Below are positions 1,605 through 34,971 of a DNA stretch of 64,000 bases, in pieces. Source of the stretch: Reichenbachiella agariperforans (GTDB taxonomy: Bacteria; Bacteroidota; Bacteroidia; Cytophagales; Cyclobacteriaceae). The stretch lies in assembly GCF_900142205.1 (NCBI RefSeq), contig NZ_FRAA01000007.1, forward strand, positions 186,001-250,000, read 5' to 3'. A program made the translations under genes and the position numbers. Under the pieces are notes generated by a model that saw nothing but the letters and a program-made list of their open reading frames with translations, did no database searches and was not told the origin of the DNA. The first letter of the stretch is position 1. Every line of letters starts with the position of its first letter.

Positions 1605-4529
1605 TTATTCTAGAATCAATTTTTTTGAGATCAGTCCATTCCTACTTTGGAATTGAAGCAGATAGATGCCTGACTGTGGCAATAACTGACGTTGGATACG
1701 TAGCGTCTTACCTTCCATTTTTTGATAGTAAGCTAGTCGACCATTCATATCATAGATCGATACCGTACCCTCCATGGTCTCGTTTTCTATTTTGATGTTC
1801 AAAACATCTTGATCGAGAGGGTTAGGATAAACCGAAAGCGTGTTGTCTAGATCTGATTTGTTTAACTCTTGGGCTATTCTGGCACCATTTTGTGCTTGCC
1901 ATGCTGCCCAGTTGTTGAAATTGAGGCCACCACTGATGACTTCAAAGCGAACGATATGTGTTCCGCTGGTTACATGGATATCTCTGAGGTGATGTGTCGA
2001 ATAACTCTGCCAACCGCCAGTGGCGGTTAGGTTTTTGGTCCCAGTTACATCCACGCCATCTACTAGAAAACGGTATTGTGCTCCACCATTGAGGGATGCC
2101 AAACGAGGGAAGAAGTCATAGTTTTGAGTCACAGTGAAGTTAACTGAGTATTCCAACCACTCTCCAGCATTCATCCAACCGATGTTGTATCCTCCACCAG
2201 TATCACCGCAAGCCTCTATGTCCACACCGTCACTTCTGTACTGCGAGCCATTGTTAGTAGCGTCTGTGTCGTGATATGCTACACCTTCTCCTCCATCATC
2301 ATAGTTTTCGGCTTCTACTTTTCCGGGGACTGTAGGAGCGGGGCTTCCGTAGGGGGTCTGCAGCGATGGAGCGGTGACGGTAATGTTGTTGGCCTGATCT
2401 GTATCTAGAGCAGTAGTCCAGTTGCCGTTGGTAGGTCTGATACTAGTCTTGATGACATAGCCAGTGCCAGGCGTGGGAGCGGTATTTAGATTGATGGAGA
2501 CACTTGATGAACCACTGCCTGCATTTACCACTGTTTTCCCTTGTCCTAGCCACCCTGTAGACGACCAGAACTCTACAATGAGGTCTCTAGTCGTGCTGGC
2601 GGAATAGTTGACCGTAAAGTTGAGCGTAGTGTTGGATTCTATTGCGCTGGGAGGAGAGGCTAGCCCAATGCCGTCTGTGACGCTCACCGCTTGGTCGTAC
2701 TTGCTCACCTCTAGAATCATAGAACTCACATGCCCGTCACTGTCTGGGAACTCAACGGTAATGGTATTGTTGTTTTGCAGTAGATTCATAGGGACAGGGA
2801 TGTCAATCGTCCCAAAGAAGTCATCTCTATTGGCCTGATCATAGCCCTTCCAGTTAGAGGGGACACTCACCGTCGTGCCGTTGACTTTGACTTCAGGAGC
2901 TTTGGATTTGTTGTGCTTGCGCCCTATGCCCATGTGCAGCACTGCGGTACCTGTACCAGTCGTCACGTTGTTGAACGTAAAACTAATAGCGGTATTCGCA
3001 AGGATGCTTTGTAGGTGCTTGCTCGTATAGTACTTTTTACTTCTGATGGTATTGTCAAAACTGATATTGCTAGCATAGCTGTACTCCAGGACGACCGTTT
3101 CTCCAGCTATCAGTGTGATGGACGAAGGGGCTGTGCTTTGCGTTGTAATGCTCATGTTAGGCATGCTTTGGTCATAGATTTTCAAACTTTTGACCTTTAC
3201 ATTTTGCAACCCAGATACTTGCTGGGCAAAGCTTAAGTTGACTGTTTCATTGCCTTCGTCTAGGTTGTTGATAGCCACATAGAGCTTGCTACCATCTACA
3301 AAGCCTTGCACCTGTACATCAGGGTTGTTGCTTGAGACATAAATACGCTTGCCTTTGACGTCTTTCCACAGCTCGTAGAAGTGAATGCGTGGCGTATATT
3401 CCCAGCCGGCAGGGTTGGGTTGTCCGATATTGGTTGGTTTGAAGAGTACCGCCTGATAGGGCTGGTAATTGTTGGCGGCAGTGATGTGCCATTCGGCCTT
3501 GCCGGTGATGAATGGAATTGAGATGGCCATTTTGTTTTCTCTCTCCAGTAGATTAAATAGCATGTGGTTGATGGAGCGTACAGTCTGGATACTTGCTATG
3601 TCGCTGTAGTTGTCTCCATACCCTTGCTCTATCGCACCATACTCAGATATGGCATGCGGTTTGACCGTTCCCCACTTAGTGTAGCTGTAGGTCTCGATCA
3701 GGTCGAGGATGGCTTCCGAATTGCTGCCCGATCGTTTGTTGTCCTGCCCTGAGACATTGACTCCATCATATAGATGAGTCGCAAATGCATCCATGTTGGC
3801 ACCTGCTACATCCATGAACATCTTCATGTTCTCGTCCCAATGACCAAAATTGTTAAGTTCTAAGGAAGGCCATGCAGAAGAATAACCTAGGATTTTCATA
3901 TTGGCTAGTTCTGGTGTTGCATGGAACTTGGCACCCACGGCACTGAACAACTCAGCCATCTGTAGTTTAATGCGATCGTTCTCGCTGCTGCTCCATGGTC
4001 CCGTGTAGAAGTCCTTGGCATGGACGAAGGGCTCATTCATCGGCTCAAAGAACTCTGGTCTACCCGATGCATCTACAAAGTCTAGGTAATACTCCGCAGC
4101 CCAGTTGGCAGCATTCTGGACATTGAGACCGTCTTTGAATGGGGCGGCAGGGTGCTCGGTACCGATGTAGCGGCTAACGCTTCGGATGCCTGTTCCTCCG
4201 GATTGAGGAGCAGGGTAGCTACCGACTGGGTTGCCTTTGCTGTTGGAGTAGGAAAAAGGACCCCAGAATCCACGTCCTTTGCCTACGTTATAGTCATTGT
4301 AGAAAGAGGTGAAGTCACTATCGTTGTTTGTTGCATGGATATTAAAGTATTTGGTTCTATCCAGCTGGGATACACTGCCTACATAGCGCTGTACCTTGGG
4401 TGAGATACTGACACTCGTCTGTGCGAATGTCAGTAGAGAGATGAGTAAAAGTGCCAGGGTTGCTAGCATTCGTTTGGACAGGAGATTTCCATCCATCTGT
4501 TTTTTGATGTAATTCTGTTTCATAATCAT
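1605..4529 (-). CDS. GH86 beta-agarase/porphyranase with CBM6 and T9SS sorting domain
   Basis: Secreted endo-acting galactanase of 974 residues. The signal peptide ends near residue 37 (LLTFAQ). A GH86 (beta/alpha)8 catalytic domain covers roughly 40-420, with acid/base E166 in MNEP and nucleophile E296 in ISEYG. Beta-sandwich domains follow to about 620, then a linker Ig-like module, a CBM6-like module (KVEAENYDDGGEGVAYHDTD) and a T9SS type A tail (VYPNPLDQDVLNIKIEN... to the C-terminus). GH86 enzymes hydrolyse beta-1,4 bonds in agarose or porphyran; which of the two cannot be decided here. Several Met codons occur before the hydrophobic core, so the exact start is uncertain. It is upstream of the CBM6 protein ending at the window edge. 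Its paralogue at 36797-39001 lacks the CBM6. Confidence 0.92.
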   Translation of the reverse strand: MIMKQNYIKKQMDGNLLSKRMLATLALLLISLLTFAQTSVSISPKVQRYVGSVSQLDRTKYFNIHATNNDSDFTSFYNDYNVGKGRGFWGPFSYSNSKGNPVGSYPAPQSGGTGIRSVSRYIGTEHPAAPFKDGLNVQNAANWAAEYYLDFVDASGRPEFFEPMNEPFVHAKDFYTGPWSSSENDRIKLQMAELFSAVGAKFHATPELANMKILGYSSAWPSLELNNFGHWDENMKMFMDVAGANMDAFATHLYDGVNVSGQDNKRSGSNSEAILDLIETYSYTKWGTVKPHAISEYGAIEQGYGDNYSDIASIQTVRSINHMLFNLLERENKMAISIPFITGKAEWHITAANNYQPYQAVLFKPTNIGQPNPAGWEYTPRIHFYELWKDVKGKRIYVSSNNPDVQVQGFVDGSKLYVAINNLDEGNETVNLSFAQQVSGLQNVKVKSLKIYDQSMPNMSITTQSTAPSSITLIAGETVVLEYSYASNISFDNTIRSKKYYTSKHLQSILANTAISFTFNNVTTGTGTAVLHMGIGRKHNKSKAPEVKVNGTTVSVPSNWKGYDQANRDDFFGTIDIPVPMNLLQNNNTITVEFPDSDGHVSSMILEVSKYDQAVSVTDGIGLASPPSAIESNTTLNFTVNYSASTTRDLIVEFWSSTGWLGQGKTVVNAGSGSSSVSINLNTAPTPGTGYVIKTSIRPTNGNWTTALDTDQANNITVTAPSLQTPYGSPAPTVPGKVEAENYDDGGEGVAYHDTDATNNGSQYRSDGVDIEACGDTGGGYNIGWMNAGEWLEYSVNFTVTQNYDFFPRLASLNGGAQYRFLVDGVDVTGTKNLTATGGWQSYSTHHLRDIHVTSGTHIVRFEVISGGLNFNNWAAWQAQNGARIAQELNKSDLDNTLSVYPNPLDQDVLNIKIENETMEGTVSIYDMNGRLAYYQKMEGKTLRIQRQLLPQSGIYLLQFQSRNGLISKKLILE

Positions 4530-8056: not shown

Positions 8057-10531
8057 TTATAGCGTTTGAATTGAGCTTTTTGCGGTGGTTAACTCATCTG
8101 CCTTCGCTTCAATTTTTATTTCTCCTTTCTCTCCTTTTTGAGACTGCACGATCAACATCAGTTGACCACTAAAGGCCTCCATTTTGTCTCCCTTGAAGCT
8201 TCGAAGCGAACGAGGGTTTCCATTGCCTACTGCAGCGATTGTGCCTGCTCCACTTACCTCAAACTGGATGAGGTGATCAGCATTGGGGACCAAATTACCC
8301 TCTTCATCTCTGATGCTCACTGTGACGAATGATAGGTCTTGGCCATCTGCATTGATTTGCGTTCGGTCTATGTCTAGTTGGATCTGAGTAGCTTCGCCTG
8401 CAGTAGACACTGATTTGCTAGCAACTTCTTGTCCATCGGTATAGGCGACCACCTTTAGGTCTCCTGGAGAGTAGGGCACTTCCCATGAGAGTCTGTACGG
8501 ACTCATATAGGTACCCTTGTCAAAGAAATGGAACTCGGCAGGGATCGGTGTTTTGTCCACTCCCTTCACTTTCTTTCCCATAGATTTTCCATTGACGAAT
8601 AGCTCTGCCTCTTCCGCATTGGTATAGGCATACACTGGGATTTTTTCTCCCTCTTTTCCTTCCCAGTTCCAGTGGGGTAGGAGATGAACCATAGGCTCTT
8701 TTGTCCATTGACTTTGGTAGAGGTAGTAGCGATCTTTTGGTAGTCCGACTAAATCTATAGGGGCGAAGTAGGATGAATGAGAAGGCCAGTCACCGTTCCA
8801 GTGGCCATTGGTAGAGTTGTCACGTCCGCCATAGGGTGTGGGCTCTCCTAGATAATCAAATCCAGTCCACATAAATTCACCCAGTGAGTGCGTATTGCGT
8901 TCTTGCTGTTCAAACTCTACATCTGGTGGGTATGCCCACGGAGGTCCCACGGTCCCGTCATAGCTGGAAACTTGCCCTGTTTCTTTGACTACATCAGCTT
9001 GGATAGGTAGGTGGTAGATGCCTCGGCTACTCGTTTGGGAGGAGGTTTCTGAGCCATATAGGATCATATCAGGGTACTGTTCTCTTAACTCTTTGAGCTG
9101 TAGAGGCCAGTAGTTGAGCCCTACTACGTCGACTTGAAACGCCAACTGGTTCTTGTAGGGTGCAGGATAGTAGTTGAACCCTATGGTGGTTTTACGACTA
9201 GGGTCTTCGTCGTGGCAAATAGCTGAGAGGTGCTTGGTTAGTTTCCAACCGTCTTTTTGCGACTGCTCTAGGATTTCATTGCCAATGCTCCACATGACGA
9301 CAGAGGGGTGGTTGCGGTCACGTTTGATCATATCTCTTAGATCACGTTCGTGCCATTCGTCAAAGAATAGGTTGTAGCCATTTTCTACTTTTCCTATCTT
9401 CCATTCATCAAAGGCTTCTACGATGACAAGAACGCCTTTTTTGTCACAAATCTCTAGCAATTCAGGTGAGGGAGGATTGTGACTTGTACGAATCGCATTG
9501 ACCCCCATGCTTTGTAGGATTTCAACTTGACGTTCGGTAGCTCTATAGTTGACTGCTGAGCCGAGGGGACCCAAATCGTGGTGCATACATACACCATTGA
9601 GCTGTACGCGCTCACCATTGACGAGTAGCCCTTCGTTGGTGGTGATTTCTATGTTTCGAATACCGAATGGTGTTTCATATCGATCAATGATTTGGTCTTG
9701 GTCTAGGATCTCCGATACTATTGTATAGAGGTAAGGTGAGTCGGGCTGCCAGAGCGATGGGGTATTGACCTGTAGTTCTGTCTCTAGTGTTATTTGCTCT
9801 GATTTAGATTGAATGCGCTGTGTCTTTGACTGGACCGTATTACCTTCTTGATCCAATAAGGTGGTTTTTAGTGTGACTTGTTTCGATGCTTGTGTATTTA
9901 GCTTGGTTTGAATTAGAACCACGGCTAGTGTACTTGTGATTTTGGGTGTAGTGATATAGGTTCCCCATTGTGCGATGTGAGTAGGGTCATTGTACTTGAT
10001 CCTTACGTTTCGGTATAGACCGGCGCCTGGGTACCACCTTGAACTAAGATCCTTTGGGTTGAGCCGAACGGCAATGACGTTTTTTTGTCCAAAGTTGACT
10101 TGATTGGTGATGTCAAACTCGAAACCAATGTAGCCAAATGGGCGATTACCGACTAGTTCTCCGTTGACCCAAACGTAGGCGTCATTCATAGCCCCATCAA
10201 ACTCGATGGAAATATTTTTTCCTTCCATACTGGGATCGATCTCAAAGGTTTTTCTATACCAGCCCATTCCAGTCACAGGGAGTCCTCCTGTACGTGCGTT
10301 GTGTTTTCTGTCGAATGGCCCAGCAATGGCCCAATCGTGCGGTAGGTTAACGATCTCCCAGTCAGTATCGTTGTAGTCGGTAGCTTGTGCTTCGAGTTCT
10401 CCTTTATGAAAGCGCCATCCGTCATTGAACGATTGGTCAGGAATGTGTGCGTTGCGCTCTTCTTTTTTACCACAGGCCAAAAGCAAACAGACCATGCCTA
10501 AGTAGAGTAATTTTCCAGTCTTTAAATGCAT
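8057..10531 (-). CDS. GH2 family beta-galactosidase-type lipoprotein
   Basis: 824 residues with a lipoprotein signal (MVCLLLACGKK, lipid Cys20). Order: sugar-binding jelly roll (about 30-180), Ig-like domain (about 190-295), TIM barrel with acid/base E419 in SIGNEI and nucleophile E495 in YGSE, a DUF4982-type Ig domain, and a C-terminal Ig-like domain (about 725-815). GH2 enzymes of this layout remove terminal beta-linked galactose or related sugars; in agar degraders they act on the galactose end of odd-numbered oligosaccharides. The true substrate is not shown by sequence. It is membrane-anchored, probably periplasmic or on the outer membrane. It stands alone, with its own terminator and a good -7 promoter motif 26 bp upstream. 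Its paralogue at 39004-41556 belongs to the AHG operon. Confidence 0.88.
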   Translation of the reverse strand: MHLKTGKLLYLGMVCLLLACGKKEERNAHIPDQSFNDGWRFHKGELEAQATDYNDTDWEIVNLPHDWAIAGPFDRKHNARTGGLPVTGMGWYRKTFEIDPSMEGKNISIEFDGAMNDAYVWVNGELVGNRPFGYIGFEFDITNQVNFGQKNVIAVRLNPKDLSSRWYPGAGLYRNVRIKYNDPTHIAQWGTYITTPKITSTLAVVLIQTKLNTQASKQVTLKTTLLDQEGNTVQSKTQRIQSKSEQITLETELQVNTPSLWQPDSPYLYTIVSEILDQDQIIDRYETPFGIRNIEITTNEGLLVNGERVQLNGVCMHHDLGPLGSAVNYRATERQVEILQSMGVNAIRTSHNPPSPELLEICDKKGVLVIVEAFDEWKIGKVENGYNLFFDEWHERDLRDMIKRDRNHPSVVMWSIGNEILEQSQKDGWKLTKHLSAICHDEDPSRKTTIGFNYYPAPYKNQLAFQVDVVGLNYWPLQLKELREQYPDMILYGSETSSQTSSRGIYHLPIQADVVKETGQVSSYDGTVGPPWAYPPDVEFEQQERNTHSLGEFMWTGFDYLGEPTPYGGRDNSTNGHWNGDWPSHSSYFAPIDLVGLPKDRYYLYQSQWTKEPMVHLLPHWNWEGKEGEKIPVYAYTNAEEAELFVNGKSMGKKVKGVDKTPIPAEFHFFDKGTYMSPYRLSWEVPYSPGDLKVVAYTDGQEVASKSVSTAGEATQIQLDIDRTQINADGQDLSFVTVSIRDEEGNLVPNADHLIQFEVSGAGTIAAVGNGNPRSLRSFKGDKMEAFSGQLMLIVQSQKGEKGEIKIEAKADELTTAKSSIQTL

Positions 10532-10556
10532 ATGCGTTTTATGAAATTGTTCTGTT

Positions 10557-10564
10557 CAAAAGTA
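10557..10564 (-). promoter_or_regulatory. Candidate Bacteroidota -7 element for the GH2 gene
   Basis: The minus strand reads TACTTTTG, a perfect match to the TAnnTTTG motif, 26 nt upstream of the GH2 ATG. No clear -33 element was found. One-mismatch versions (CAnnTTTG) also lie upstream of the GH16 genes (20488-20495 and 19346-19353, minus) and of the PSD1 gene (61495-61502, plus). Confidence 0.4.
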
Positions 10565-10710
10565 AAACCTTCATGGATTGTAGACGGGTTAGAAACGCAA
10601 GCAATCCCAAAGGGTAGGGGAAGGGATTGTGTTGAATATAAGGGGCAAATTGTCATAAGTGTTTTCTGTCTCCATATATAGGGAACTCAATCGCTATATT
10701 TTGAGATGAT

Positions 10711-13700
10711 TTGAAAATGAGCATGAGCGTGAAAATTACTATTAGCATCGTATTTGGCTTGAGCCTGTGTCTGCTGTGTGATCAGTTATGTGCACAGCGT
10801 TTTGAGAAAAGACAGTTGACTAGTCTAGAAAAGGTAGGTGGACAAAATGGAATAGCAGTGGCAGATTTTGATCAAGACGGTGATCTAGATGTGGTCATGG
10901 TCGAGCGTAGTGAACAGGCTCACCCTAGACGGGGAGGACGCACGGTTTTGCTGGCAAATCAGAACAATGGAAGTTTTTTGGATGTGACCGTGGAGAGCGG
11001 GATTAGTACGTATTACAACTATGGTAAAGAGGCAGAGTCAGACATGGGGACCAACAAAGGTGCGGCTTGGGCAGATTTTAACAATGATGGGTACCCCGAC
11101 TTGTTTTTAACCATGAAGAACCGTTGTTTTTTGTACAAGAATCTGGGAGGACACTTCATTGATATGACCGAACAAGCGGGCTTGCCTAGAATCGACACTT
11201 GTAATAATGCAGGATCGGCATGGTTGGATTATGATAATGATGGATTGCTGGATGTTTTTGTGAGTAAATATGGAGGCTGCAGCAGCAACCGTCTCTTTCA
11301 CAACAACGGCAATGAGACCTTTACAGAAGTGTCTGAGGCGGCTGGCGTAGGTGGTGAGCAACTGCATACTTGGATGGCACTACCAGTAGATCACAACGAG
11401 GATGGTTGGATGGATCTGTTGGTGATCAATGAGTTTTCTACACCGAATGAGTTGTTTATCAATCAACAGGATGGGAGCTTTATGGATGAAGCCACGGATG
11501 CCAATATCCTTGATATCGAAGATAGCATGGGGAGCGATTTAGGAGATGTGGATGGAGACGGAGATTTGGACGTATATATTACCAGCAATGGCCTAAGTTC
11601 ACTGTTTATAAAAGAAGGTAATGCCTACATCGATCGATCAGGAAGTTTGGGGACTGGAAACGCAGGTTGGGGGTGGGCAACTCGGTTTTTTGACTTTGAC
11701 CTGGATACAGATTTAGATATTTTGGCTGTCAATGGCTACATAGATACCTATGTAGAAACCAGCCGTCTGTTTGAGAATCAGTTGGCACAGGGAGAGTTGC
11801 GATTTCAAGATGTAGCGCTCAATAACGAGATGACAAGGAAGGGAGTTTCTTTCGGGAGCGAGGTATTCGACTATGACAATGATGGAGACCTAGACTTGAT
11901 AGAGGGCAATGCCTATGGTAGCCCCCAGTTTTTTGAGAACAGAACAATTGAGCAAGCTGATTTAGCCAAGCATTGGCTTCAGATCGAATTGGTAGGAGTT
12001 GTCGCCAACCGGGATGCATATGGAGCGGTGGTTTCGGTGACTCATGCATCGAATACGTGGACAGGTAGCAATCATGGCGTTGGTTTTCTGTCTCAGAGTA
12101 AAAGACCTATTCATTTTGGGTTCGGAGAATATTCTGGCGTAGTAGATGTAGTGGTTCGCTGGCCTGGGGGGGCTGAACAAAGCTTTCGATCTGTTGGTTT
12201 GGACCAATTTGTTAGGATCACAGAGGGAGACGATGACGTGGAGGTTTTGATGAGAGAATCCAGCACCAAGCCTATGGGATGTACAGACCCACATGCGTGC
12301 AACTACGATGACAAGGCTGTACAAAATGATGGCAGCTGCGAGTATTTGCCACAGCCCGAAATTATTGGAGAAACTCAGTCCCGTCCTTTGTCTAGGAGCG
12401 TTTATGGCGTGCAGAATGCTGTAGGAGATTTTGATTGGCAGTGGGGGTGTACGCAGGGTAAAATAGTGAATGGTCAAGGCACACCGCAGATAGAAGTAGA
12501 GTGGGGAGTGGCTGAGCAAGCAGAGATAATGCTTACCCAAATTGGAGAATGTCATAGTGAGTCAGCAAGACTCGGTGTCTCGCTAGATGTGCAGTCTAGT
12601 ATAGAAGGGAATCACTCGGTCGCCCGATTATGGAATGAACTGTTATTGGGAGCGATTAGGAAAGACTATGCTCGACCTACAGTGCATGCCCGAAATCTGT
12701 TTCATACGTCTGTCGTGATGTACGATGTATGGGCAGCTGTCACAGGGCAGGGGCAACCTTACTTTTTGGGTAATCAATGGGGGAATTATCAATTGCCTTT
12801 CGAAGGGTTTGCCACAGCGGATCAAACTCTAGATGCTCACAAGGCAATCAGCTACGCCATGTATAGGTTGCTGACACATCGTTTCAAGGATTCGCCGGGT
12901 GCCGAGCAATCTTTGGCGAGTTTTGATGAACTTATGGCTGCACTGGGTTATGATCCGAGTTTTCTGTCTACGGATTATCATTTGGGTGATGCTGGTGCCT
13001 TGGGCAACTATGTAGCGCAAGGTATGATCGCATTTGGACTTCAGGATGGATCGAATGAATTGAACAACTATGCCAATCGGTATTATCGACCAGTCAATGA
13101 TCCGATGAATCCTTTTGAGTCTGAGAGTATTTTAGGAATAAACCCGAACCGTTGGCAACCCTTAGCCATTAACGGGTTCATAGACCAGAGTGGAAACAAT
13201 CAAGAAGGAGGGGCAGCTAAATTTTTGAGTCCAGAGTGGGGACGTGTCCAGCCATTTGCACTCAACGAATCAGATCTTAGTGTTAAGAGTGGATCAACGA
13301 ACGACTATTGGGTGTATCATGATCCCGGCAGTCCACCACTACTGACGTCTACAGAGAAACAAGAGTATCAATGGGGTTTTTCGATGGTGTCGGTATGGGG
13401 TGGTCATCTAGACCCGAGTGATGGAGTCATGTGGGATATATCACCAGGAGGAATTGGTAATGTAGCACTAGAGTCTATTCCAAGTAGTTTTGAAGAATAC
13501 GATCAATTCTATGCCTATCAAGACGGAGGGGATACTGGGCTGGGACGAGAGACTAATCCTGTCACAGGAGCAGCCTACAAGCCCAATCGGGTACCTAGGG
13601 GAGATTATACTAGAGTGTTGGCGGAGTTTTGGGCTGATGGGCCAGACTCTGAAACTCCGCCGGGACATTGGTTTACTCTTCTCAATTATGTCCATGATCA

Positions 13701-14712
13701 TGAGCAGTTTGAGGCGAAAATGGAAGGGATAGGGGAAACATTAGCCCCTTTAGAGTGGGATGTGAAAGCCTATTTTGCACTTGGAGGAGCCATGCACGAT
13801 GCAGCGATTGCTGCCTGGGGGATCAAGGGATGGTACGATTATGTGAGACCTGTCACGGCCATTAGGTATATGGCTGAGAGAGGGCAGAGCAGTGATGTAG
13901 CTAAGGCCAATTATCACGAAAGGGGGATGCCGTTGGTAGCAGGGAGGATAGAACTGATAGAAGAGGGTGACCCCTTGGCTGGAGATCAGGGAGAGAATTT
14001 GGGTCAGATTAAACTTTACTCTTGGAGAGGTCATAACCGGGTATCTGACCCAGCCACAGATGTCGCTGGAGCAGGATGGATTCTAGCGAAGGAGTGGTGG
14101 CCTTATCAGAGGCCTTCTTTTGTGACGCCTCCATTTGCAGGGTACATATCTGGGCATTCTACTTATTCGCGCGCAGCTGCGGAAGTACTGACACGGTTGA
14201 CAGGTAGTTCTTATTTTCCAGGAGGAATGGGTGTTTTCATAGCCAAAAAAGATGAGTTCTTGGTGTTTGAGAAAGGGCCAAGTGTGGATGTCGCGTTGCA
14301 GTGGGCGACATATCAAGATGCGTCTGATCAGTGTAGTTTATCTCGGATATGGGGAGGGATTCATCCACCAGCGGATGATATACCCGGTAGAAAAATAGGC
14401 GCACTGATAGGAAATCGAAGTTTCGAGAAGGCCAAGACCTATTTTAATTCTACTTTGCTGGCATCTGAGCAGCAAGAGAAGGCTAAGTATTTTAGTCCGT
14501 TTCCTAACCCTGTTCACTCAGGAGACCAGATCACCCTGCCTGGATATGGTGGAGAATTCTTGACAGTCTATGATATGATGGGACGAAAAGTATATGACGG
14601 ATATACCGAAGGTTCGAAAGAGGGACACTCGTCAGTGGATTTGACTGGAGTGGAAAAAGGACTGTATATCTTTGCAGTCGGGAAAGAAAAATATAAAATC
14701 CTGATTGAATAA
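10711..14712 (+). CDS. FG-GAP/UnbV propeller fused to a vanadium-dependent haloperoxidase domain, T9SS-exported
   Basis: 1333 residues. Signal peptide to about residue 29. FG-GAP/VCBS Ca-binding repeats (DFDQDGDLDV, DFNNDGYPDL, DVDGDGDLDV, DYDNDGDLDL) run to about 410, then an ASPIC/UnbV domain (about 415-515). A Cys-containing linker starts GCTDPHACNYDD at about 523. From about 632 to 1250 there is a helical vanadium haloperoxidase-type domain. Its vanadate-site pattern is complete: K1039-x6-R1046-P, S1147-G-H1149, and S-R1212-x5-H1218, with the same K-to-R and R-to-H spacing as known vanadium chloroperoxidases. A T9SS tail (FNPVHSG-type, about 1260-1333) follows. Predicted role: extracellular halide oxidation or, less likely, phosphatase activity. 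The LacI gene starts 2 bp after the stop, so the two are coupled. Confidence 0.85.
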   Translation: MKMSMSVKITISIVFGLSLCLLCDQLCAQRFEKRQLTSLEKVGGQNGIAVADFDQDGDLDVVMVERSEQAHPRRGGRTVLLANQNNGSFLDVTVESGISTYYNYGKEAESDMGTNKGAAWADFNNDGYPDLFLTMKNRCFLYKNLGGHFIDMTEQAGLPRIDTCNNAGSAWLDYDNDGLLDVFVSKYGGCSSNRLFHNNGNETFTEVSEAAGVGGEQLHTWMALPVDHNEDGWMDLLVINEFSTPNELFINQQDGSFMDEATDANILDIEDSMGSDLGDVDGDGDLDVYITSNGLSSLFIKEGNAYIDRSGSLGTGNAGWGWATRFFDFDLDTDLDILAVNGYIDTYVETSRLFENQLAQGELRFQDVALNNEMTRKGVSFGSEVFDYDNDGDLDLIEGNAYGSPQFFENRTIEQADLAKHWLQIELVGVVANRDAYGAVVSVTHASNTWTGSNHGVGFLSQSKRPIHFGFGEYSGVVDVVVRWPGGAEQSFRSVGLDQFVRITEGDDDVEVLMRESSTKPMGCTDPHACNYDDKAVQNDGSCEYLPQPEIIGETQSRPLSRSVYGVQNAVGDFDWQWGCTQGKIVNGQGTPQIEVEWGVAEQAEIMLTQIGECHSESARLGVSLDVQSSIEGNHSVARLWNELLLGAIRKDYARPTVHARNLFHTSVVMYDVWAAVTGQGQPYFLGNQWGNYQLPFEGFATADQTLDAHKAISYAMYRLLTHRFKDSPGAEQSLASFDELMAALGYDPSFLSTDYHLGDAGALGNYVAQGMIAFGLQDGSNELNNYANRYYRPVNDPMNPFESESILGINPNRWQPLAINGFIDQSGNNQEGGAAKFLSPEWGRVQPFALNESDLSVKSGSTNDYWVYHDPGSPPLLTSTEKQEYQWGFSMVSVWGGHLDPSDGVMWDISPGGIGNVALESIPSSFEEYDQFYAYQDGGDTGLGRETNPVTGAAYKPNRVPRGDYTRVLAEFWADGPDSETPPGHWFTLLNYVHDHEQFEAKMEGIGETLAPLEWDVKAYFALGGAMHDAAIAAWGIKGWYDYVRPVTAIRYMAERGQSSDVAKANYHERGMPLVAGRIELIEEGDPLAGDQGENLGQIKLYSWRGHNRVSDPATDVAGAGWILAKEWWPYQRPSFVTPPFAGYISGHSTYSRAAAEVLTRLTGSSYFPGGMGVFIAKKDEFLVFEKGPSVDVALQWATYQDASDQCSLSRIWGGIHPPADDIPGRKIGALIGNRSFEKAKTYFNSTLLASEQQEKAKYFSPFPNPVHSGDQITLPGYGGEFLTVYDMMGRKVYDGYTEGSKEGHSSVDLTGVEKGLYIFAVGKEKYKILIE

Positions 14713-14714
14713 TC

Positions 14715-15746
14715 ATGCACAAAGGCCGTATCAATATTAAGGACATAGCTAAGGCATTAGGAGTTGCTCCTTCTACCGTGTCGCGGGCATTGAGTAATCA
14801 AGGCAGGGTTAGCCCAAAAACCAAAGCGTCTATCATGGAACTTGCAGAAAAATGGGGGTATCGACCCAATCCATTTGCCCGAAATCTGCAAAAAAACAAA
14901 TCAGGTTTGATAGGGCTCATTCTACCAGAGTTTACCCATCATTATTTTGCCAAAGTCCTTTCTGGGGTCAATAAAATCATCAATCAAAGTGACTATCGCT
15001 TGATTATCAATGTGCATGAGGGGAGTGTGGAAAAGGAAAAAGAGATCGTGAAGATGCTAAGCGAAATGCATGTAGATGGTGTACTGGCTTCTTATGCTCG
15101 TGAAACTGACGATTTCGAACATTATTTATCATTGATAGAAGAGGAAGTGCCTTTGGTGTTTGTAGATAGAATGTGTGAAGACTTAGATGCGTCCTATGTG
15201 ATCAGCGATGATTTTGATGGCAGCCGTTTGGCGATTGATCACTTGGTTCAGTCTGGTGCTCGTAGGATCGCTTATATTTCAGGGCCAGATCGTTTGTCTA
15301 CGACCTTTACGCGCCTCACGGGGTATAAGGAAGTCATGAACAAACATAGTCTGCCACACCCTGATCATTGGGTGCTGCCTACCAATGGTTCGGACTGGAC
15401 GGAACAGCTTGAGCACCTGGTGATGAATGAAAACATCGATGCACTGTTGGCTTACAGCGATTATCTGGCTTTTGATGCAGTACAAGTACTGAGAAGACTA
15501 GGGAAACGGGTGCCTGAAGATGTGGCAGTGGTAGGATTTGCTGACGAACCTATAGCCAGTTACATGACTCCTCAGCTCACTTCTGTGCACCAACCCGCAT
15601 TCGAAATGGGGCAAAAGGCCGCAGGGATTTTGTTGGACGAGTTGTCCAATCCCTCACAGGCCATTTCGTCACTTGTACTACCCAATCAATTGATTGCCAG
15701 GGACTCTACCAAATCTGATCACTCTCGTCTCCACAAGACGGGTTGA
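14715..15746 (+). CDS. LacI-family transcriptional regulator
   Basis: 343 residues. The N-terminal LacI helix-turn-helix is clear (IKDIAKALGVAPSTVSRALS), followed by the hinge (GYRPNPFARNLQ) and a periplasmic-binding-protein-like effector domain (about 60-335, with RRIAYISGP and VAVVGFADEP). The start is 2 bp after the haloperoxidase-fusion stop, so it is likely co-transcribed with it. LacI repressors usually respond to a small sugar or sugar phosphate. Here the effector could be a galactan breakdown product, but which gene set it controls is not visible. No obvious palindromic LacI operator was found right upstream of the fusion gene. Confidence 0.9.
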   Translation: MHKGRINIKDIAKALGVAPSTVSRALSNQGRVSPKTKASIMELAEKWGYRPNPFARNLQKNKSGLIGLILPEFTHHYFAKVLSGVNKIINQSDYRLIINVHEGSVEKEKEIVKMLSEMHVDGVLASYARETDDFEHYLSLIEEEVPLVFVDRMCEDLDASYVISDDFDGSRLAIDHLVQSGARRIAYISGPDRLSTTFTRLTGYKEVMNKHSLPHPDHWVLPTNGSDWTEQLEHLVMNENIDALLAYSDYLAFDAVQVLRRLGKRVPEDVAVVGFADEPIASYMTPQLTSVHQPAFEMGQKAAGILLDELSNPSQAISSLVLPNQLIARDSTKSDHSRLHKTG

Positions 15747-19577: not shown

Positions 19578-20465
19578 TTATTGGGTCCAGACGCGCATAT
19601 ATTTAATATGGAACTCTTTGTCAGTGCGTTCGTCTGGCAATGCACCAAACCACTTGTTCGATTCATTATTGATGTTGATTTCAAGAGGCTGGTGCCAGTG
19701 GGTGTTTTCTGCTTCTCTGAACAGGATACCGTCTATGTAGAACCGGATCACGTCTTCATTCCATTCGAGCCCCCATACATGGTAGTCTGCTTGTAGTTCA
19801 AAAGGAATGAAGTAGGTCTTTGATCGCATGAAATGCTTCTGGACATCTCCATGCTCTGGTGGTGATCTGAAGACATGTATGTTGGAGTGCAAGTCGTGTC
19901 TGTTTTCTGCCACACCGGGATCATTTTCGCAGATGTCGATTTCCGTCCACCAGTCCTTGCTCCCATTGGTGACCCAAAAACCCGAAACCCAAGGTGCATC
20001 CATGAGCTTCATCTCTGCTTCCAGATAGCCATATTTTAGCTTTTGCTTCGATTTGATGAATCCTGCCGTGTGTGTATAGCCTTCTGGGATTTCTTCATCG
20101 CCATGCTGATTGATCTTCAGTACCAATTCTCCTTTTTTTAGGCTTACGTTCGAGCCGTGAAAGTAGGTAGGTTGTCGACCTTTCCATCCTGGATTGTTGG
20201 GATGCCACCTGTCGATGTTTAGCTTTTTACCCTTAAATTCATCTGAGAGCTCTTTGTTGATTTTCCATCCCCCTTCATTGTTTTGGTCAGAGAGAGGAAA
20301 TTTTTGGTTGAGTCTAGGCGGCGCAGCAGCTATGTCGACGGTGTCTGTATAGTAGCCCGCTGGTTTGGTTGGTGGATTGTCTGTATCGTTCTCGTTCTGA
20401 GCAGCGATTTGGAGTAATGGAAGCCCCCATAGCAAAAGGGTGAATAGTTTTAATCGATAGTTCAT
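19578..20465 (-). CDS. Secreted GH16 beta-agarase/porphyranase-like enzyme
   Basis: 295 residues from the ATG at 20465, chosen because it gives a signal peptide (LLLWGLPLLQIAAQ); the longer upstream frame has none. A Pro-rich stretch (about 25-60) leads into the GH16 jelly roll with E175-I-D177-I-C-E180 as catalytic motif. Substrate-groove residues such as YFHGSN and SGFWVTNGSKDWW are of the agarase/porphyranase kind. It has no CBM or T9SS tail, so it is probably periplasmic or released by another route. It lies upstream of the lipoprotein GH16 with a 273-bp gap and is divergent from the L-galactose operon. Confidence 0.87.
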   Translation of the reverse strand: MNYRLKLFTLLLWGLPLLQIAAQNENDTDNPPTKPAGYYTDTVDIAAAPPRLNQKFPLSDQNNEGGWKINKELSDEFKGKKLNIDRWHPNNPGWKGRQPTYFHGSNVSLKKGELVLKINQHGDEEIPEGYTHTAGFIKSKQKLKYGYLEAEMKLMDAPWVSGFWVTNGSKDWWTEIDICENDPGVAENRHDLHSNIHVFRSPPEHGDVQKHFMRSKTYFIPFELQADYHVWGLEWNEDVIRFYIDGILFREAENTHWHQPLEININNESNKWFGALPDERTDKEFHIKYMRVWTQ

Positions 20466-20663
20466 GCTTATTAATGTTTTAAAAGCACAAAGGTGACTTA
20501 AGTTGGTTGTTATGAAGTATTCTATTTTTTCCAAAACTTTCTCTATTCTGTAGAGAGATTGGTTGTGGGCTATGCTACCAAATTTGCGCAACCGTTTGCT
20601 CATGATTACCTGAAGCCAAAGAACAATGTTTGTATTCAAATCGATAGAGAAAAGGATACAAAT

Positions 20664-30111: not shown

Positions 30112-33100
30112 ATGAAAAGACTATTTACATTAATGAAATGTTGCCTCTTTTTAGTGATGTGTATGGGCATGAGCAATCTAGTCCACGCGCAATCCAAAAT
30201 AGTAGGTAAAGTGACAGATGATGGGGATGGCTCGGAGATTCCGGGGGTCAACGTGATGGTAAAAGGTACGACTGTCGGTACTGTTACAGATTTGGATGGT
30301 AACTATAGTTTGGAGTTGCCAGCTGATGCGGAAGCTCTTGTGTTTAGCTATATAGGCTATTTGAAGCAAGATGTACTGATAGGAGGACGATCAAGTATTG
30401 ACGTAGGTCTTGTCACTGATGTGGAGCAACTGGACGAAGTGGTAGTAGTAGGCTATGGGGTTCAGAAAAAGAAAGAAGTAACTGGAGCAGTTGCCTCGAT
30501 CAAATCTGAAGAGCTGTTGAAAAATGCTACTCCGGATATTGGGGATGCGATGCAGGGACAAATTGCGGGTGTAAACGTGCAAGCAGCCAGTGGCCGTCCA
30601 GGTGCAAAATCAAATGTTCAGATTAGAGGTATTGGTTCGGTTAGCGCAGGTGCATTGGGTCCACTCTATGTCGTAGATGGCGTCCCTTACCAGCGTGATC
30701 CTAACGTTGCTCCAGAGCAAATCGAATCTATCGAAGTATTGAAAGATGGAGCTGCGGCGGCTATCTATGGTGTAAGGGCTTCTAATGGAGTAGTCTTGAT
30801 CACGACCAAGAGAGGACAAGCAGGTCGTATGCAAGTTGATTTTTCTGCATACGGAGGGGTTCAAAACATTACCTCAGGGACTCCTTTGATGAATACAAAG
30901 GAGCAAATGTACGTGGAGGAAGTAAGACTGGAAGCAATAGGGCAGGAACCACAGATTTTCCAGTTTACTCCAGACGCTCTGGATTATGATACGGACTTTG
31001 TAGGGGATGTACAGAATGACAATGCCAAAATGCAGAGTTATAACCTCAACGTGAGCGGAGGACAAGAAAACCTCACCTTCAGTTTAAATGCCAACTATTT
31101 TGAGCAAGATGGGGTGTTGATCAATTCTGGTTATGATCGTTTTACTACGCGCTTGAGTGGTGAATACAAACTGAATAAGTTTCGTGCTTTTGCTACTCTG
31201 GCTATGACCCAAGAGAACACAGAGCAGGAGCCTTGGGCGTTGTATGAGCTGGCCATTGTTCAAAAACCATGGCAAAGAGGGATTAATGACATAGAAAACA
31301 TTGGAACCAATGAAGTTTTAGTCCCTTCTGACAATCCTATTCAGTTTGGTTATTTGGCTAGACAGCTGCAAAACGAAGACGATAGAATTGTCAATAGCAA
31401 TAATATGGCAATCAACCTTGAGTATGAGTTCATCCCAGGATTGAGCTTTCAGGTGAATCTAGGACGTAATAGTTGGAATTACAGAAGAAAATTCTTCCGA
31501 CCTCAGTATCTGGCTTATAGTATTGATGGAGGACTGCAGCCTGCAGGTTCTACCCTAAATGCATTGCTTAATGAAGAGTATATATTTTCTACCAAAAACA
31601 CGCTTGAAAACATTTTGAAATTCAACCGTCAGTTTGGTAAACACAACGTGGGAGCCACTTTGGTATTGTCTTACGAAAACTTCGAAAATAAAAATACGGG
31701 TGTGGGTGTAGTAGGCCTATTGAGTAATGATACCAAAGTACTCGGTGCAGGAACTACAGGCACTAAACCAACAGGTACAGAATCCACTCAGAACATCGTA
31801 GGTAAAATGGCTCGTGTCCAGTATGGATACAACGAAAAGTACTTGATGTCTGCCAGCATTCGATACGATGGTTCTTCTATTTTCGGAGAGCAAAATAGAT
31901 ACAATACATTTTATGGAGTATCAGCAGGTTGGAATATCAGCGAAGAAAATTTCTTCAAAAACGCAGGGCTCAACTTTATCAACAATTTGAAAGTGAGAGG
32001 GAGTTATGCTGAGTTAGGAAACCAGAGCGTTGCTCCATATCAGTATGCTGCGACTATCGAAAGTGGTATCGACTACCCATTTGGCCCAGAAGGCGCAGAG
32101 ACTCTCGGTATTGGTGCTATTCAAAGACGATACGCTAATCCGTTGATTCAGTGGGAAACCACTATTTCTAGAAATATCGGTTTGGATATGAACATGTTCG
32201 AAGGGAGATTGAATTTTAATGCAGATGTCTACTTGAACGATAAGCAGGATATGTTACTGTCAGAAAGGCTAGCTCCATCGTCAGGTACCTGGCAGACACG
32301 TGCGATTGGTGCGTACGATGTACGTACTATCAATGCGGGAAATATGCAAAACAAAGGTATTGAACTAGCACTGGGATACAGAGACGAAACAGAATTTGGT
32401 TTGACATGGAGTGTCAACGGTACCTTCACTAAAAATGTGAATGAAGTAACAGATTTGAATGGAGTGGAAGGGATTGCATACGGTGGTGGACGTCCAGTTA
32501 CTTCACGTGGCGAAAGAACTGATTTTACTACTTTCCTTTCTGAAGGATATGAAGGTGGAGCATTCTTCCTACTGGAGCATGAAGGAGTAATCAAAAACCA
32601 AGAGCAATTGGATGAATACAAGCTATTGGATCCAGGCGCAATGATGGGAGACATGATGTACAAGGATCAGCTGACAGTGGATACAGACGGTGATGGAGTA
32701 CCTGATGCTGGTAATGGCACCATAGACGATGCGGATAGAGTATATGCAGGGTCTGGTATGCCAGAGTTTGAGGCGGGGCTAATGCTTAATGCCGGGTTCA
32801 AAGGTTTTGATTTTTATGTGCAGGCTTATTACTCGTATGGTGCAGAAGTGTACAACGGAGCAAAGCTTTACGCATATGGCACGACTCGTCACAAGGACTT
32901 ATACTACATGTGGTCTCCGCAAAATGCTGATTCTGATATACCTATGGCTAGAAGTAATCAGGAACACAACAACACGCGTGCTAGATCTGATTTCTTTTTA
33001 GAGGATGGTACTTACTTGAGAATCAGAAATATTACAGTGGGTTACACAATTCCAAAACGTGTGTTTAATGATAAAATCAACAAGTTGAGATTCTATCTCA

Positions 33101-33243
33101 CTGCTCAAAACCCATTCACTTTTACCAACTATGGGGGGTATGACCCTGAGGTCGGTGGTGATGGTTTGTTCACTAGAGGTGTTGATCAAGGGAACTACCC
33201 GATTACAAGAAAATTCTTGGCGGGTCTACAACTACAGTTTTAA
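30112..33243 (+). CDS. SusC-type TonB-dependent outer-membrane transporter
   Basis: 1043 residues. Signal peptide (to about residue 26), carboxypeptidase-like regulatory domain (VGKVTDDGDGSEIPGVNVMV, about 28-105), TonB box/plug start DEVVVVGYGVQKKKEVTGA, plug domain and a 22-strand beta-barrel ending in an aromatic residue (LQLQF). It imports oligosaccharides across the outer membrane with its SusD lid. It is the only SusC/D pair in the window, so it presumably serves agar/porphyran oligosaccharides. First gene of a three-gene operon. Confidence 0.95.
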   Translation: MKRLFTLMKCCLFLVMCMGMSNLVHAQSKIVGKVTDDGDGSEIPGVNVMVKGTTVGTVTDLDGNYSLELPADAEALVFSYIGYLKQDVLIGGRSSIDVGLVTDVEQLDEVVVVGYGVQKKKEVTGAVASIKSEELLKNATPDIGDAMQGQIAGVNVQAASGRPGAKSNVQIRGIGSVSAGALGPLYVVDGVPYQRDPNVAPEQIESIEVLKDGAAAAIYGVRASNGVVLITTKRGQAGRMQVDFSAYGGVQNITSGTPLMNTKEQMYVEEVRLEAIGQEPQIFQFTPDALDYDTDFVGDVQNDNAKMQSYNLNVSGGQENLTFSLNANYFEQDGVLINSGYDRFTTRLSGEYKLNKFRAFATLAMTQENTEQEPWALYELAIVQKPWQRGINDIENIGTNEVLVPSDNPIQFGYLARQLQNEDDRIVNSNNMAINLEYEFIPGLSFQVNLGRNSWNYRRKFFRPQYLAYSIDGGLQPAGSTLNALLNEEYIFSTKNTLENILKFNRQFGKHNVGATLVLSYENFENKNTGVGVVGLLSNDTKVLGAGTTGTKPTGTESTQNIVGKMARVQYGYNEKYLMSASIRYDGSSIFGEQNRYNTFYGVSAGWNISEENFFKNAGLNFINNLKVRGSYAELGNQSVAPYQYAATIESGIDYPFGPEGAETLGIGAIQRRYANPLIQWETTISRNIGLDMNMFEGRLNFNADVYLNDKQDMLLSERLAPSSGTWQTRAIGAYDVRTINAGNMQNKGIELALGYRDETEFGLTWSVNGTFTKNVNEVTDLNGVEGIAYGGGRPVTSRGERTDFTTFLSEGYEGGAFFLLEHEGVIKNQEQLDEYKLLDPGAMMGDMMYKDQLTVDTDGDGVPDAGNGTIDDADRVYAGSGMPEFEAGLMLNAGFKGFDFYVQAYYSYGAEVYNGAKLYAYGTTRHKDLYYMWSPQNADSDIPMARSNQEHNNTRARSDFFLEDGTYLRIRNITVGYTIPKRVFNDKINKLRFYLTAQNPFTFTNYGGYDPEVGGDGLFTRGVDQGNYPITRKFLAGLQLQF

Positions 33244-33261
33244 TCCTAAATGTGTAGAAAG

Positions 33262-34971
33262 ATGAATAAGAAACTTATATATATATTAATGATACCTGTC
33301 TTCCTGCTCAATATGAGTTGTAATGAGGACGAATTTTTGACAGAGGTGAATCCAAATGCCATCACTACAGAGGTGTTTTGGGAAACGAGCGATGATTTTG
33401 AGAAAGCGCTGAATACCGTTTATGGTGCGCTTCAATTTCCATCTGTAAGTGGTGGTAATTTGAGTTATGAGATGGTACAAGGCGACTTGGCAGGTACAGA
33501 AAATTGGTATCCTCAGAGCCCATTTGGTGAGCTTAATTTTACTGATGCGACTGAACATGTACAGAATAAATGGAACGAGCTGTATATCGGTATCTTTAGA
33601 GCCAATCAAGTGCTTCATTATATAGCAGATGCTGATATTGAAGATGAAGAGAAAGCCCTAGTCATCGGACAGGCGAGGTTTTTGAGAGCATTCTTTTACT
33701 TTCAACTTGCTCATACCTACGGAGGCGCAGTGATCCATACTGCCCTGCCAGTGACCGATGAGGATTTTGAGAAGCCATTCGAATCTATCGATGAAGTGAC
33801 GACTCAGGTGATAGTACCAGACTTGGAATTCGCAAAGGCAAACCTTGAAGGAATATCTTGGACGGGAGATGATTTGGGTAGAGTCTCGTGGGGTGCCGCT
33901 ACTTCGCTATTGGGTAAGGTGTACCTATACGATGAGAGTTGGTCCGAAGCTGCGGTACAGTTCAAAGAAGTCATCGATTCACAAATCTATAGTTTGACAG
34001 CTAGCTATATGGACAACTTTACACATGAAAATGAATTCAATAGTGAATCAATTTTCGAAGTGAGTTATTCTGACGTACTAAAACCAGGAGTGAATGGAAA
34101 TACAATAGACGATACTCCAAGTGAGACGGGATCGGAAGCTACGGCATTGAACATTTCTATGGCTCAGCTCAATTTTGGAGGCTACAACACGGTACTTTCT
34201 TCCTATTATCTCCATGAATTGATGGTGTATGATGAAATCGATCCTTCTAAAACTGTAAACAATGGTTTTACTTTCTCTCAGCGTATGTATGCGAGCATTG
34301 TACCAATCAACGGTGATGGTGAATATTATGGCTTGCCGATTGGAGACAAACCAGGATGGGCTTTTGGGCAGAGTGCTTATGTGAAGAAATTTTCCAACTG
34401 GTATCATTTGGAGATCGAGGATGGAAACCAGCGTTCAGGTATCAACTTTAGACATATCAGATATGCGGACGTACTACTGATGTATGCTGAAGCTATCTTG
34501 AATGATCAGGGAAATGCAGCAGTGGCTGAAGCCATCAGCTACATTGATATGATACGTGATAGAGCGGGTGTGTTGACCATTCAGCAATATCTGAATGATA
34601 ATGGAAACACCTTCCCCGCAATGCATAGAAGTGTTCAGGTGCACGGAGCCTTTGATATGGTAGCTCCGACAGCTGATAACCTACTTACGCACATCATGCT
34701 AGTCGAGCGACCTATTGAACTGTGCTTTGAAGGCCACAGATGGAAGGACTTAGTGAGATGGGATATTGTAAGCAATCAGCTCACTACGCTTCGTGCAGAT
34801 GAAGTTTGGAGAGAAAATAACCTTGCTACCATTCAGGGTCAACCTCCATTGATGATTACTGAGAGGATTCGTCCTGATTATGCGGTATCGGCAGGTAGCT
34901 ATACAGCTAGTGATAACTACTTTCCAATACCGACTGGAGAGAAGCAGATCAATGCAGGCCTAGGATTGTAA
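33262..34971 (+). CDS. SusD-type glycan-binding lipoprotein
   Basis: 569 residues from the ATG at 33262, preferred over the in-frame ATG at 33250 because it gives a standard lipoprotein signal (MIPVFLLNMSCNEDEF). RagB/SusD helical fold with TPR-like pairs (FLRAFFYFQLAHTYGGAV) and the C-terminal SusD region (IMLVERPIELCFEGHRWKDLVRW). It caps the SusC barrel on the cell surface and binds the glycan. It starts 18 bp after SusC. Confidence 0.94.
   Translation: MNKKLIYILMIPVFLLNMSCNEDEFLTEVNPNAITTEVFWETSDDFEKALNTVYGALQFPSVSGGNLSYEMVQGDLAGTENWYPQSPFGELNFTDATEHVQNKWNELYIGIFRANQVLHYIADADIEDEEKALVIGQARFLRAFFYFQLAHTYGGAVIHTALPVTDEDFEKPFESIDEVTTQVIVPDLEFAKANLEGISWTGDDLGRVSWGAATSLLGKVYLYDESWSEAAVQFKEVIDSQIYSLTASYMDNFTHENEFNSESIFEVSYSDVLKPGVNGNTIDDTPSETGSEATALNISMAQLNFGGYNTVLSSYYLHELMVYDEIDPSKTVNNGFTFSQRMYASIVPINGDGEYYGLPIGDKPGWAFGQSAYVKKFSNWYHLEIEDGNQRSGINFRHIRYADVLLMYAEAILNDQGNAAVAEAISYIDMIRDRAGVLTIQQYLNDNGNTFPAMHRSVQVHGAFDMVAPTADNLLTHIMLVERPIELCFEGHRWKDLVRWDIVSNQLTTLRADEVWRENNLATIQGQPPLMITERIRPDYAVSAGSYTASDNYFPIPTGEKQINAGLGL

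Follow-up and report, generated by a model that had tools for sequence, protein, structure and literature searches.

The 64,000-nucleotide stretch of the Reichenbachiella agariperforans genome analysed here (RefSeq assembly GCF_900142205.1, contig NZ_FRAA01000007.1, positions 186,001 to 250,000; hereafter the window) encodes, at 10711–14712 on the forward strand, a protein of 1333 residues that joins a predicted Ca-binding FG-GAP β-propeller with a UnbV/ASPIC domain to a predicted vanadium haloperoxidase (VHPO) domain and a C-terminal sorting tail of the type IX secretion system (T9SS). Most of what is known of bacterial VHPOs concerns stand-alone enzymes or tools of biosynthesis. An original prediction, made from the sequence, had described the protein as an undescribed fusion exported within an agar locus and coupled to a LacI regulator, and had proposed that it forms hypohalite at the algal surface, detoxifies algal halogen chemistry or loosens the wall matrix. 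In the openly licensed PubMed Central (PMC) literature we found no report of a haloperoxidase paired with FG-GAP, UnbV, CRTAC1 or T9SS, in agreement with the first of these claims, and in the accessible part of PMC12188728 the term "vanadium-dependent haloperoxidase" appears only in a reference.

Architecture of the fusion protein

The coding sequence is a single uninterrupted open reading frame that matches Pfam families in both halves. Its listed start is TTG at 10711, and ATG at 10717, two codons downstream, is no less likely as judged from the sequence. A likely Sec signal peptide (10717–10797), recognised by eye and without a signal predictor as a hydrophobic stretch ending in LCAQ, leads into the FG-GAP propeller (10786–12015; FG-GAP_3, E 2e-38), which carries seven copies of the Ca-binding-type motif D-x-D/N-x-D/N-G/T-x-x-D and is followed by the UnbV/ASPIC domain at residues 436–501 (12016–12213; UnbV_ASPIC, E 2.5e-12). 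The combination of FG-GAP repeats, Ca-type motifs and a UnbV domain places the N-terminal half among the UnbV/ASPIC FG-GAP propellers, as originally predicted. The best Foldseek match of the whole-fusion model is murine CRTAC1 (9etn; 9.9e-22, and 7.9e-11 by phmmer), which likewise combines a propeller with UnbV but whose chain of 586 residues has no peroxidase.

Between the two halves lie a cysteine module recognised by its sequence pattern, GCTDPxxCNY...DGSC (12277–12339), and a PKD-like domain at residues 561–619 (12391–12567). The three cysteines of the module are invariant across 42 aligned rows (the window protein and 41 others), and the pattern recurs in 55 of the 60 fusions described below. 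The PKD-like domain scores under the cut-off in the window protein (PKD_6, E 4.6e-4) and above it in the relative L036. The predicted VHPO domain occupies residues 631–1255 (12601–14475).

The protein ends in a T9SS type A sorting tail (residues 1264–1329; 14500–14697), which passes the NCBIfam cut-off (TIGR04183, 24.3 versus 23 bits) and falls below that of Pfam (Por_Secre_tail, E 5.2e-5, 23.9 versus 27 bits). The genome also encodes PorV (212 bits), the sole component of the T9SS machinery that was searched. Judged from these signals, the fusion protein is probably surface-exported, as had been proposed. In a related locus, L058, the UnbV propeller and the solo VHPO are separate genes with a PorV-like T9SS gene (11665–12828, reverse strand) in between, an arrangement that would suit a dedicated shuttle encoded with its cargo.

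Active site and fold of the haloperoxidase domain

All three VHPO motifs are present, with each residue exactly where the original prediction had placed it. Motif 1, K-x6-R-P, is formed by K1039, R1046 and P1047, and motif 2, S-G-H with the catalytic histidine, by S1147, G1148 and H1149; both are intact in every one of the 83 aligned rows. In motif 3, R-x5-H, the vanadate-linked histidine (H1218) is kept in all 83 rows and the arginine (R1212) in 82, the remaining row having an X at this position. A phenylalanine seven residues ahead of the motif-2 histidine is also found in 83 of 83 rows. It proved unusable as an indicator of halide preference, the same residue being present in the iodoperoxidase of Zobellia galactanivorans, and the available part of PMC11871015 places halide specificity beyond the first sphere.

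Profile searches and modelling gave the same assignment. The window protein matches DUF6851 at residues 708–817 (E 4.8e-10) and VCPO_2nd at residues 1189–1218 (E 1.3e-6); PAP2 was not listed for it at E 0.1 and stays below cut-off in L036. The AlphaFold2 model of the domain alone (625 residues; pLDDT 87.8, pTM 0.91) was the query for the structural comparisons that follow, with Z scores from VIA-align. All 17 Foldseek matches at E ≤0.001 are VHPOs or VHPO homologues, and bacterial and fungal VHPOs align over 394–442 residues at Z 22–29, as expected of the two-helical-bundle VHPO fold, which is roughly double the size of a PAP2 domain. The closest fold is Streptomyces NapH1 (3w35; Z 29.2 over 438 residues), tied with the halogenase XhnO11 (9l8x; Z 28.5), which is also the best sequence match of the window protein in the PDB (3.5e-13). 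The solved chains of these two enzymes, at 528–531 residues, are without propeller or T9SS tail, and 9l8x carries S-G-S where the window protein carries S-G-H. NapH3 (8cxl), which according to its PDB title catalyses a rearrangement, is also among the nearest folds (Z 28.3). Sequence relatives of the C-terminal half with solved structure, found by phmmer and profile searches, are VHPOs (9l8x, 9ptr, NapH3, NapH1 and Zobellia 4cit).

The Zobellia iodoperoxidase (4cit/4usz; Z 25.8) likewise comes from a marine member of the Bacteroidota and shares the motif PPF..SGHS, with the same phenylalanine and histidine. Its sequence likeness to the window VHPO is weak (profile 1.4e-7), and its solved chain of 458 residues is without a propeller, while the window VHPO domain alone spans 625. 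The fungal chloroperoxidase of Curvularia inaequalis (1vnc series; Z 22.8 over 420 residues) has the two-bundle fold, is also without a propeller and is 17% identical to the window domain; we take it to bind vanadate through the same kinds of residues. Acid phosphatases align over about 190–200 of the 625 residues at Z about 10, as against about 440 residues at Z 29 for the nearest VHPOs, and with the motifs kept, a PAP2 or class A acid phosphatase was ruled out. Sequence and model thus support the assignment of the C-terminal half to the VHPOs, both by fold and by active site. That the domain oxidises halide is what we infer from the same evidence.

Distribution and origins of the fusion

VHPO queries built around the window protein gave 122 hits, reduced to 113 distinct rows (the window included) after removal of duplicates. 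These comprise 60 fusions, 44 solo VHPOs, seven solo VHPOs with a longer C-terminus and two VHPOs with another N-terminus; as best hits to such queries, they give a share of fusions that is no natural frequency. One row labelled solo, L089, is cut by a contig end, two counted as fusions, L086 and L137, are cut or broken, and the partial L052 was omitted when rows were aligned. Since 60 of 113 family members carry the fusion, including a paralog in the same genome, a sequencing error or gene-join artefact was ruled out. The paralog, L039, is 58% identical to the window protein (frame of 1340 residues), and the genome also holds a solo VHPO (52% identity, frame of 764).

Larger surveys, in which fusions and solos were told apart by frame length alone, extended this picture. 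In the window's own family, 92 of 295 genomes match at 1e-10, distant VHPOs included; at 1e-160 or better there are 87 matches, of which 15 have frames of 1270 residues or longer and 64 have frames of 700–910. A second family, that of genome G514, has matches at 1e-100 in 108 of 397 genomes, with 55 of 122 matches in frames of at least 1300 residues; of 395 genomes from the whole phylum, 22 have a match at this threshold. Named genera with fusions include Winogradskyella, Maribacter, Tamlana, Bizionia and Marinoscillum, among others. The relatives found number at least 579. Judged by these matches, the fusion is widespread in Bacteroidota and no curiosity of the window locus. A plasmid search with the whole protein returned 20 partly matching records, none covering 80% of the query. 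Two overlapping tandem fusions occur in Tamlana nanhaiensis (L081, 8066–16145, forward strand), and G895 C5 holds another tandem pair, whose two members score equally. Solo relatives in metagenome-assembled contigs labelled KSB1, Neomarinimicrobiota, Gammaproteobacteria and Gemmatimonadetes (L102, L117, L118 and L146) may reflect transfer or binning error. The two VHPOs with another N-terminal half are L047 (8273–11761, reverse strand), with immunoglobulin-like (Ig) and leucine-rich repeat (LRR) domains, and L050 (1222–4686, reverse strand).

In a VHPO tree obtained by a quick search with SH-aLRT support, a group of 57 rows (SH-aLRT 95) unites 56 fusions with a contig-cut "solo". The window copy falls just outside this clade on a long branch and is weakly placed, and the fusions L040, L046 and L150 fall among solos and have different linkers. 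Mapped on the tree, the label "fusion" changes five times, at least four of the changes being forced by supported branches, although some may be losses or stem from the contig-cut row. Two loci keep the halves as separate genes: a UnbV propeller with a T9SS tail of its own precedes a solo VHPO by 12 bp in L062 and by 26 bp in L130, and SusC- and SusD-like genes come before each pair. Of the 53 non-fused rows, six have a propeller upstream on the same strand, in three cases at a distance of over 6 kb, and 2 of 20 random regions also contain one. Because fusions with other linkers occur as well as pairs of adjacent genes, we conclude that propeller and VHPO have been paired more than once, and this repeated pairing points to a shared task.

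Gene neighbourhoods

Single copies of the fusion lie inside runs of wall-degrading genes. The second fusion of the window genome, L039, belongs to a same-strand run of glycoside hydrolase family 97 (GH97), GH43 with a family 6 carbohydrate-binding module (CBM6), glucuronyl esterase, the fusion, GH10 and arabinofuranosidase, with flanking gaps of 86 and 104 bp. In L045 (genome G007) the fusion is flanked by two porphyranases (gaps of 234 and 70 bp), in L051 it lies 5 bp from a porphyranase, in L040 it lies 3 bp from a GH10 with a GH115 next to it, and in L049 it overlaps a GH30 by 4 bp. The window copy itself has a GH2 at a distance of 179 bp within a locus of porphyranase, GH16 and SusC/SusD genes. 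The occurrence of copies in both xylan-type and porphyran runs suggests a general oxidative helper of wall digestion and not a tool for one polymer.

The window fusion lies in what its gene content marks as an agar/porphyran locus, bearing out the original prediction in this respect. The GalB-like GH2 β-galactosidase (8057–10531, reverse strand) is divergent from the fusion, and beyond it lies a porphyranase-type enzyme with a CBM and a T9SS tail (1605–4529, reverse strand; Pfam). Family matches further identify a GH16 (19578–20639, reverse strand), a pair of SusC-like (30112–33243) and SusD-like (33250–34971) genes spanning 30112–34971 on the forward strand, and a second porphyranase-type enzyme with a T9SS tail (36797–39001, forward strand); a sulfatase is also encoded. 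Another porphyranase match just upstream of the window (G000 C14:183076–184989) indicates that the locus extends past it. Two proteins have no Pfam match at 1e-6, one following SusD (34995–36611, forward strand, 538 residues) and the other at 49618–51738 (forward strand, 706 residues). A second FG-GAP/UnbV propeller protein, of 729 residues and without peroxidase, is encoded near a sulfatase at 51770–53959 on the forward strand.

A LacI-family regulator (14715–15746, forward strand; Pfam) begins 2 bp past the fusion stop codon, and inverted repeats are found at 10519–10544 and 10669–10706 near the divergent region 10532–10710; nothing ties these repeats to LacI. A LacI-type direct neighbour is present in 2 of 60 fusions (the window copy and L101), and coupling to LacI was thus ruled out as a trait of the family.

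The galactan setting fared similarly. A porphyranase lies within 20 kb of a fusion-length VHPO in 4 of the 10 genomes holding both (expected 0.22, P 3.6e-5), and in none of the six porphyranase-bearing genomes that have solo VHPOs only. These searches scored two candidates per genome and perhaps missed some, and one porphyranase of genome G019, seen in L051, was added by hand. With this post-hoc hit and the discovery genome G000 omitted, 3 of 9 genomes retain the link within 20 kb (P 5.6e-4). The link is thus, by these counts, present in some porphyranase-bearing genomes and no family trait. Of 12 genomes searched, seven hold GH10, and in two of these, G000 and G076, both of them discovery cases, it lies next to a fusion; four of the 12 hold a glucuronyl esterase, which is next to a fusion in G000 only.

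In a scan of direct neighbours, glycosidase-type genes make up 12 of 112 fusion neighbours and 2 of 114 control genes (P 0.005). These counts cover the 25 of 115 neighbour families shown and include, as glycosidase-type, DUF2264, a family of unknown function in Pfam that precedes four fusions; 24 fusion neighbours in housekeeping-like or common clusters were skipped in the scan and kept in the denominator, and the counts omit a few neighbours that were absent, truncated, of unsuitable length (too short or too long) or fusions in their own right. We regard this excess as a lead, not a proof.

Discussion

Our proposal for the export, chemistry, positioning and purpose of the fusion builds on its observed architecture, residues, fold match, recurrence and neighbours. 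The protein would be made with a signal peptide, pass the outer membrane via the T9SS and, as its tail and the PorV gene in the genome suggest, stay on or near the cell surface. The C-terminal domain, with its fold and invariant residues, would bind vanadate in a standard VHPO pocket and use H2O2 to oxidise halide, in seawater most likely bromide or iodide, to hypohalous acid. Given its repeated pairing with this VHPO, the Ca-binding UnbV propeller would serve for positioning, keeping the catalytic domain in contact with a surface or polymer. For the window copy, the H2O2 may come from red algae that sense oligoagars, the products expected from the neighbouring enzymes; release of H2O2 on exposure to oligoagars is described for Gracilaria conferta in the accessible part of PMC10806984. 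The enzyme would spend this algal H2O2, and the hypohalite could then attack wall material or nearby cells. In those parts of the respective papers that were available, the Curvularia chloroperoxidase halogenates lignin fragments (PMC10278073) and hypohalite is released and reacts non-specifically (PMC10427571).

We give about an even chance, if slightly short of it, to the view that the fusion is a surface hypohalite-forming enzyme that was recruited to several wall-degrading loci. Because copies of the same genome lie in porphyran-type and glucuronoxylan-type surroundings, a general wall-related role is favoured over defence against red-algal halogens. Of the purposes originally suggested, detoxification of algal halogen chemistry is therefore not favoured, while loosening of the wall matrix gains some support from the xylan-type gene run of the second copy.

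Several results weigh against the view of a hypohalite-forming enzyme recruited to wall-degrading loci. Two tests found no enrichment over random regions, and a general association of fusions with polysaccharide utilization loci or carbohydrate-active enzymes (CAZymes) was rejected: general polysaccharide-locus markers were found in 15 of 54 fusion loci and 7 of 20 random regions (P 0.58), with non-fusion loci at 8 of 42 (loci under 15 kb excluded). CAZyme or sulfatase queries matched within 6 kb of 17 of 60 fusions and 7 of 20 random regions (P 0.58; loci under 10 kb excluded), with solos at 7 of 41 and other forms at 0 of 6, even though these queries were drawn partly from fusion neighbours, a bias that favours fusions. 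All random regions were taken from the window's own family (seven genomes) and are unmatched to other families. A gene of the common, mostly housekeeping, clusters lies within three genes of 18 of 60 fusions; a SprT-like neighbour is common to 12 of the 60. The excess of glycosidase-type neighbours shrinks to 8 of 112 without DUF2264 (P 0.06) and disappears when the seven sulfatases of the control are added (P 0.50), and the porphyranase link, in the reduced set, weakens to a single genome of nine at both 15 kb (P 0.13) and 10 kb (P 0.09). As to the enzyme itself, the algal and Acaryochloris bromoperoxidases fit the model no better than acid phosphatases do (Z 8.8–10.4 over 299–323 residues), NapH3 performs other chemistry on this same fold, and the whole-fusion model (pTM 0.60) has an unreliable domain arrangement, which was left unused.

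The many fusions outside CAZyme surroundings would fit a general stress enzyme, a surface VHPO that mainly removes H2O2 released by algae or extracellular oxidases, with hypohalite as a by-product quenched in seawater. The oligoagar-triggered burst of Gracilaria would suit such a protective role equally, as would the up-regulation of Zobellia vIPO3 during growth on the brown alga Ascophyllum, described in work whose accessible text emphasises detoxification of reactive oxygen species (PMC9296495). However, catalase-type enzymes do the same without making hypohalite, and protection leaves both the dedicated propeller and the placement with GH10 and esterase unexplained; we consider it somewhat unlikely. 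Hypohalite formed at the surface might instead kill competitors or break quorum-sensing molecules on shared surfaces, as its non-specific reactivity and the broad spread of the fusion, untied to one polymer, would allow. Some copies nevertheless lie inside CAZyme runs, and no immunity or competition genes were noticed among the neighbour families shown (25 of 115 in the direct-neighbour scan), with no search aimed at them, so that chemical warfare or signalling appears improbable.

Least probable, in our estimate, is a vanadate- or phosphate-binding VHPO homologue that does not oxidise halide, whether a phosphatase or a NapH3-like enzyme. VHPOs and acid phosphatases do share their pocket, and NapH3 is among the nearest folds. 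Yet the acid phosphatases match less than a third of the domain, and the motif-2 histidine is kept in every aligned row, including the window protein, while NapH1 and Mcl24 are reported to have serine or threonine in its place and still to halogenate (PMC13198595, in the part available).

A bolder form of the proposal, which we think unlikely as it stands, is that the propeller-mounted, T9SS-displayed VHPOs of Bacteroidota constitute an oxidative auxiliary activity of polysaccharide loci, with paralogs assigned to agar/porphyran and to glucuronoxylan gene runs, in which the propeller docks on the wall and locally formed hypohalite breaks or loosens the matrix for the hydrolases. Such an activity, if real, would parallel the copper-based oxidative attack on walls, with vanadium as the metal. 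A widespread, probably surface-exported VHPO-propeller in wall-degrading gene runs would connect the turnover of marine polysaccharides with halogen oxidation and so with the formation of organobromine and organoiodine compounds. We know of no established function for bacterial UnbV-ASPIC propeller proteins, and UnbV propellers would gain a testable one. Lastly, where annotation has picked up only the propeller half or only the peroxidase half, a single two-part enzyme may go unnoticed in the genome.

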